From: Thermoproteus sp.
Lineage (GTDB): Archaea; Thermoproteota; Thermoprotei; Thermoproteales; Thermoproteaceae
DNA length: 64,000 nucleotides
Assembly (NCBI GenBank): GCA_038893495.1
Contig: JAWARJ010000001.1
Location: 1,787,824-1,851,823, forward strand
Direction of reading: 5' to 3'
Shown in pieces: positions 22,224 to 24,561 of this stretch; position 1 is the first letter of the stretch, and each line of letters starts with the position of its first letter. The translations under genes were made by a program, and so were the position numbers. The notes beneath the pieces are model-generated. The model ran no database searches. It was not told where the DNA came from and saw nothing but the letters and a program-made list of their open reading frames with translations.

Positions 22224-22397
22224 CGGCCCCTTGGAGACAAACGCCTTTTAGGGCCCGCGCGTCAACGCTTTTAGGCGACTCATAGAGGTCCTGTTGAGGC
22301 GATCTAAGTCAAGAGCCTCGTTGTCCTCAACAGAAGGCCGAATGGGCCCGCCGGGATTTGAACCCGGGATCTCCCGCGCGTCAGGCGGGCCTTCGGG

Positions 22398-22523
22398 AAG
22401 CCGTGGCGCCCCGTTTGTGCTCCGAACGGCCGCTATTTAAGTCTTTCCGCCTTGATAGGAAACGCGACGGATCGCCACAGATAACAGGAAGATCAAGGGG
22501 ACGGGCCCGGGGCGCCACGGCTT
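22398..22523. repeat. 15-bp inverted repeat flanking the insert of tRNA-Val
   Basis: AAGCCGTGGCGCCCC at 22398-22412 is exactly complementary to 22509-22523. It brings the two tRNA halves together. A second, weaker pair CCTTGAT/ATCAAGG lies inside. Similar GC-rich complementary arms join the halves of split tRNAs in Nanoarchaeum. Confidence 0.85.
22433..22443 (-). promoter_or_regulatory. TATA element inside the tRNA-Val insert
   Basis: The minus-strand sequence GACTTAAATAG lies in an otherwise GC-rich insert. Spacing of 26 bp to 22411 would start a transcript exactly at the 15-nt arm that pairs with the trailer of the 5' half, and 21 bases before exon 2. Confidence 0.5.
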
Positions 22524-22589
22524 TCTATCCTACCGCTAGACTACGGGCCCCTCTTATGCTAGAAAGGCTTTCCCTTAAAAATTTTCTCT

Positions 22590-24405: not shown

Positions 24406-24499
24406 CATAACGGCCCGGAGCTTTTAATCTTTACCTCGGGCCGCCGCGAACAAGCCAGCGGCGATAAAGCTTAAAAATAAGGGAAGAAGATATAGACGC

Positions 24500-24561
24500 C
24501 CCGGCGCCTCTCTATAGGCCTCCCAAGCCGCTGATCCCGGGTTCGAATCCCGGCCGCCGCA
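24500..24561 (+). tRNA. 3' half of tRNA-Gly(CCC), solitary
   Basis: From 24517 the sequence gives GGC-CTCCCAA-GCCGC (part of the anticodon stem, anticodon CCC), variable TGATC, T-arm CCGGG-TTCGAAT-CCCGG, acceptor CCGCCGC and discriminator A at 24561. The partner acceptor GCGGCGG with a D-arm is absent upstream, downstream and, as far as I could read, from both strands of the window. A tRNA-type promoter AAAGCTTAAAAATA (24466-24479) puts the transcript start near 24500, leaving a 16-nt GC-rich leader before the tRNA part, as in trans-spliced split tRNAs. The other reading is a 45-bp attachment-site remnant of an integrated element. Confidence 0.75.

Follow-up and report, generated by a model that had tools for sequence, protein, structure and literature searches.

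The question raised by this locus of a Thermoproteus genome is whether a tRNA-Val(GAC) interrupted by a large insert represents a single intron-containing gene or two half genes that lie side by side, are transcribed separately, and are joined in trans. The locus is situated in a 64-kb stretch of DNA, referred to here as the window, which corresponds to bases 1,787,824-1,851,823 of a closed, single-contig genome (G000; 1,995,394 bp; completeness 99.99). Coordinates marked C1 are those of the G000 contig, while unmarked coordinates are those of the window. The protein adjoining the tRNA-Val locus shows an 89% match to Thermoproteus sp. UBA157, and five relatives of the same genus (G001-G005; G002 with 1,841,542 bp, G004 with 1,936,063 bp) formed the comparison set. 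Summed over all loci, with the split ones counted in, G000 has 46 tRNAs, and the same count of 46 has been reported for Thermoproteus tenax (PMC3189178).

The tRNA-Val(GAC) gene is missed by ARAGORN and Rfam at default thresholds. On the minus strand, its 5' exon (G1 to T25; 22527..22550) is separated from its 3' exon (position 26 to the discriminator A73; 22343..22390) by an insert of exactly 136 nt (22526-22391), and joining of the two at 25/26 leads ARAGORN to call tRNA-Val(gac). These coordinates bear out the preliminary description, in which a D-arm half and an anticodon-T half were placed 136 nt apart at about position 25/26. The insert carries a 16-nt 5' arm (22508..22523, minus strand) and a 3' arm (22398..22413, minus strand) that are exact reverse complements over 16 bp (22508-22523 with 22398-22413); the exact complementarity of 15 nt described earlier (22509-22523 with 22398-22412) is confirmed, with pairing that reaches one position further. 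This arm pair is the sole perfect inverted repeat of at least 13 nt in the 64-kb window whose copies lie less than 250 nt apart. Immediately 3' of the 5' arm, a CGGGCCC motif (22503..22509, minus strand) is the complement of the acceptor strand GGGCCCG; it is present in both valine 5' halves of the genome and pairs with the acceptor strand when the lone 5' half is folded, a prediction according to which it can give this half an acceptor-like stem of its own.

The locus was scored with a promoter model built from the promoters of 37 intact tRNA genes in G000. A BRE/TATA element (GAAAATTTTTAAGGG; 22572..22586, minus strand) scoring 15.0 bits starts 36 nt before G1 of the 5' half, and a second one, internal to the insert (AAAGACTTAAATAGC; 22432..22446, minus strand) and scoring 17.2 bits, starts 34 nt before the 3' arm. 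In 36 of the 37 genes the real tRNA promoters start 32-36 nt before G1; the arm thus occupies the place of a tRNA 5' end, and transcription is predicted to start at or just before it, at about 22405-22418. The internal score falls in the middle of the range of real tRNA promoters and is attained at a fraction of only 3e-5 of window positions. The earlier observation of a TATA-like element inside the insert, alongside a TATA belonging to the 5' half, therefore stands, both elements being located at tRNA spacing.

Further copies of the valine halves are dispersed in G000. A Val(CAC) 3' half (C1:455705-455793, minus strand; 94% over 89 nt) and a Val(TAC) 3' half (C1:1044611-1044728, minus strand; with an apparent intron at 37/38) each possess a promoter, an arm, and a leader, the internal promoter being conserved in both, and a second Val 5' half (C1:458907-458957, minus strand) repeats the 5' exon with an unchanged arm and a different promoter. 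The conserved 5'-half block extends from G1 through CGGGCCCRTCCC, and the conserved 3'-half block from TCAAGGCGGAAAG to about 10 nt beyond the discriminator base, while the intervening stretch of roughly 40 nt in the window, comprising the spacer between the two cassettes (22460..22498, minus strand), is not conserved in the other copies. The joined CAC and TAC exons are likewise called tRNA-Val by ARAGORN, with the anticodons CAC and TAC. The second 5' half and the CAC 3' half share a strand, the former being located some 3.1 kb upstream of the latter, and the ORFs between them resemble, by inspection, regulators and an ABC transporter. No D-arm is found in front of the 3' half at either the CAC or the TAC locus. 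A 5' exon beside a 3' exon on one strand is thus a feature of GAC and of neither CAC nor TAC, and an ordinary single-transcript intron gene cannot apply to the latter two. Searches with Rfam, DNA, the D-arm, and the T-arm found no intact tRNA-Val in G000, including no second complete tRNA-Val(GAC), a gene that the preliminary description had regarded as contrary to its proposal. The tRNA-Val set of the genome comprises three 3' halves but only two 5' halves, which means that for CAC and TAC, if not for GAC, the pieces must be joined in trans. As the two 5' halves have identical exons and arms, they should be interchangeable.

For GAC alone, an alternative is a cis-spliced tRNA with a large, structured intron of 136 nt, with an internal promoter that is either vestigial or present by chance, whereas CAC and TAC are trans-spliced from the second 5' locus. 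The GAC exons are found on one strand and in the right order, so that the insert could splice in cis, and relatives carry a cis intron at 25/26; in addition, no clear terminator was found downstream of the Val 5' half, which makes read-through of the GAC pair possible. This alternative is nevertheless improbable, because the internal promoter has the strength and spacing of real tRNA promoters and is conserved in copies that must be separate genes, while the spacer next to it is not conserved, and because a tRNA-Asp of the same layout in Aeropyrum pernix gives two transcripts by northern blot (PMC3218864). The tandem split gene put forward in the preliminary description gains support from the orphan CAC and TAC 3' halves and the orphan 5' half, whose own promoters and conserved arms show that G000 encodes these parts as separate genes. 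It is very probable that tRNA-Val(GAC) is a tandem split gene, one of seven split tRNAs in this genome, trans-spliced with shared 5' halves; from the arrangement of exons, arms, and promoters, we infer separate transcription and trans-splicing of the valine halves.

The pairing of the arms and the structure of the junctions are consistent with the split gene reading. The Val 5' arm pairs with the 3' arms of the GAC, CAC, and TAC halves over 16, 13, and 14 bp, respectively, compared with 9-13 bp in the other split tRNAs, and the best partner of each 5' tail is its own 3' leader. Among 3000 shuffled arm pairs, none reached 12 bp and 16 reached at least 9 bp. At the Val(TAC) junction a bulge-helix-bulge is formed with a central helix of TAGG/CCTA (4/4 pairs), whereas the GAC and CAC junctions form a relaxed version, TAGG/CCGA, with 3/4 pairs and one A.G mismatch. 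The minimum-energy fold of the GAC pair recovers the long arm and leaves the junction as an open loop, so that cleavage there would have to tolerate a relaxed motif. In crenarchaea, the tRNA splicing endonuclease normally has two subunits; a search with PF01974 gave one match (C1:1700599-1700835), which, like the A.G mismatch, counts against the split reading, although a diverged second subunit could escape such a search.

In addition to the three valine tRNAs, Gly(CCC), Arg(TCG), Ser(GCT), and Met/Ile2(CAT) are found in G000 as halves only, and the split tRNAs amount to 7 of the 46. The Gly(CCC) 3' half also lies in the window (24496-24561, plus strand), with a promoter (TAAAGCTTAAAAATA; 24465..24479, plus strand; 16.9 bits, 33 nt before the arm), an arm (24496..24511, plus strand) that is exactly complementary over 13 bp to the 5' half at C1:554601 (plus strand), and an exon from position 30 to A73 (24518..24561, plus strand). 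The halves of Arg(TCG) are located at C1:486294 and C1:487879 and those of Met/Ile2(CAT) at C1:460297 and C1:461594, all on the plus strand, and those of Ser(GCT) at C1:1365489 (plus strand) and C1:1409492 (minus strand). The 5' tail pairs with the 3' leader over 13 bp in Gly, 9 bp in Arg, 11 bp in CAT, and 10 bp in Ser, and all four junctions form a bulge-helix-bulge with 4/4 central pairs, although the Ser(GCT) junction was picked from several registers and its exact place is less certain. The 9- and 10-bp matches would be weaker indications if taken alone; both are accompanied by 4/4 junction pairs. Every half of the split tRNAs in G000 has a promoter motif 30-36 nt ahead of it, the lowest scores being those of the Ser 5' half (8.4 bits) and the CAT 5' half (11.4 bits).

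Since tRNA genes are common integration sites, the scattered halves might alternatively be nonfunctional remnants of integrated elements or of rearrangement, and G000 does hold tRNA fragments, namely a tRNA-Gln 3' piece (C1:1477744) and, at C1:119472, a 5' piece similar to Arg(TCT). Such an origin is very improbable, as the halves retain promoters at tRNA spacing together with matched arms, and no intact gene was found for these isoacceptors. Moreover, no integrase or transposase is apparent by inspection in the ORFs between linked halves. Viral contigs contain no match to the promoter block of the cassette, and their three matches to the arm all sit in unrelated sequence; a viral source of the cassette was accordingly rejected.

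Several other pieces of tRNA were encountered in the genome. The tRNA-Gln gene (C1:1468045-1468101) and the tRNA-Gln 3' fragment (C1:1477744-1477766) are about 9.6 kb apart, as expected for an integrated element. The tRNA-Arg(TCT) gene has its promoter and beginning duplicated at a distance of 38 kb (C1:119472 and 81264), the duplicate lacking the remainder of the gene. An extra Arg-like 5' piece with a TATA-like sequence is present at C1:1094936 (plus strand), for which a partner 3' half was not identified, and tRNA-Arg(CCG) (C1:1098802, minus strand) is in one piece with an apparent T-loop intron that hides it from a T-arm search. An arm-like 13-mer at about C1:1142270 has no tRNA nearby and was set aside, and a low-scoring Rfam alignment across the Val 3' half was discarded because the leader had been aligned as a D-arm.

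The proposed maturation of the valine tRNAs can be outlined as follows. Each half would be transcribed from its own promoter, and the half transcripts would pair through the GC-rich arm over up to 16 bp, aligning the exons as a bulge-helix-bulge at 25/26 that is exact for TAC and contains one A.G mismatch for GAC and CAC. By analogy with the known split-tRNA pathway (PMC3218864), the tRNA splicing endonuclease would then cut both strands and a ligase would join the exons. The two 5' halves, which share the same exon and arm, could serve the GAC, CAC, and TAC 3' halves alike.

Comparison with relatives of the same genus provides indications of how this arrangement arose. In G002, the GAC, CAC, and TAC genes all lack an intron at 25/26, and in G001, G004, and G005 the GAC and/or CAC genes contain an intron of 18-20 nt at this site in cis. 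The ends of these introns resemble those of the G000 insert (GAAAGCCG... in G004) and form a bulge-helix-bulge, with exon-intron pairing of TAGG/CCTA or CCTG, and they have neither a promoter nor a long arm. The suggestion in the preliminary description of an intermediate between an intron-containing and a split tRNA is strengthened by this short cis intron with matching ends at the same site. Given that tRNA-Val is in one piece in these genomes, with no 25/26 intron or a short one, the split looks recent and intron-derived. One-piece genes were also seen for the other four tRNAs: for Gly(CCC) in G001-G004, adjoining Val(GAC) in G002 and G004 as in G000; for Arg(TCG) in G001 and G003; for Ser(GCT) in G002, G003, and G004, where the split site has no intron; and for CAT in G001, G002, and G004. 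In G005 the CAT tRNA is split (L284, G005:C13; about 1448 and about 2211, plus strand), and its 15-bp arm, GCCGTCGGCGAATCC, is unlike that of G000, which suggests that this split may be independent. On the basis of these genomic comparisons, splitting in Thermoproteus looks recent and has probably occurred repeatedly.

The surroundings of the valine genes differ among these genomes as well. The genes flanking tRNA-Val(GAC) (22343-22550) are shared with G002 (C1:1503893 region), and its orientation relative to them is opposite, which indicates an inversion of the tRNA segment; in relatives found by a contig search with the adjacent protein, tRNA-Val does not lie beside that protein. In G001 and G004, the CAC gene directly adjoins a transporter-like ORF; in G000 this ORF is found beside the 5' half, and the CAC halves flank what is, judged from gene order, rearranged ground. 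In the TAC 3' half, the 37/38 intron resembles that of the intact TAC genes of G001 and G002, while the promoter and arm are of the GAC/CAC type, a combination that suggests exchange among the valine genes by recombination and not a change of anticodon by mutation. The split probably arose within a pre-existing short 25/26 intron, after which the 3'-half cassette of promoter, arm, and leader probably replaced the fronts of other valine genes by recombination. The more general proposal that tRNA splitting spreads as a cassette, in which a promoter- and arm-bearing 3' half converted the other valine genes through recombination across the conserved body of the tRNA and left the whole isoacceptor family dependent on trans-splicing with pooled, interchangeable 5' halves, is one for which we consider the chances evenly balanced.

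Known split tRNAs offer partial parallels. The tRNA-Asp(GUC) of A. pernix, proven to be split by RT-PCR and northern blot, resembles Val(GAC) in its adjacent same-strand halves and bulge-helix-bulge junction, and in a strong promoter within an apparent 121-nt intron and a 14-bp GC-rich stem; its read-through, cis-spliced product was detected by RT-PCR only (PMC3218864). It differs in being joined at 37/38, in being the one split tRNA of its genome, and in having halves without second copies. Caldivirga maquilingensis (Fujishima 2009, as reviewed in PMC4390854 and PMC4033280) also belongs to the Thermoproteales and has dispersed halves and a split Gly(CCC), and two of its tRNA-Ala isoacceptors use one 5' half, comparable to the shared Val 5' half. 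Its six split and tri-split tRNAs are for Gly, Glu, and Ala, whereas the seven of G000 are Val, Gly, Arg, Ser, and CAT, and G000 differs in having a shared 5' half in two copies and a tandem pair. In Nanoarchaeum equitans, too, the 5' and 3' parts are encoded by separate genes with GC-rich arms, and halves are shared (PMC4033280, PMC3218864); its genome, however, is the reduced one of a parasite, the shared half is a 3' half rather than a 5' half, and the tRNAs that are split are different ones. The highest number of split tRNAs stated in the sources consulted is six, in Caldivirga and Nanoarchaeum (PMC3218864). Within Thermoproteus, the SRP RNA gene of T. tenax and T. uzoniensis has been described as permuted, with maturation by way of a bulge-helix-bulge (PMC4731332), so rearranged RNA genes have been noted in this genus before.

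The open-licence literature searched yielded no earlier report of split tRNAs, either in Thermoproteus or for valine in any organism, nor any precedent for split Val, Arg, or Ser tRNAs, for the splitting of all isoacceptors of one amino acid, for a duplicated shared 5' half, or for seven split tRNAs. A long-running debate concerns the age of split tRNAs, which may be ancient relics or may have arisen recently from genes with introns. Within one genus and one tRNA family, the genomes compared here present no 25/26 intron (G002), a short intron (G001, G004, and G005), and tandem and dispersed halves (G000), and this Thermoproteus valine series comes close to a stepwise record of a recent, intron-derived origin. 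Seven split tRNAs that include those for every valine codon would exceed the previous six, and would open the cause of splitting, and the way in which it spreads, to direct tests. If the split reading is true, each valine placed in a protein of this organism depends on the joining of two separate RNAs.
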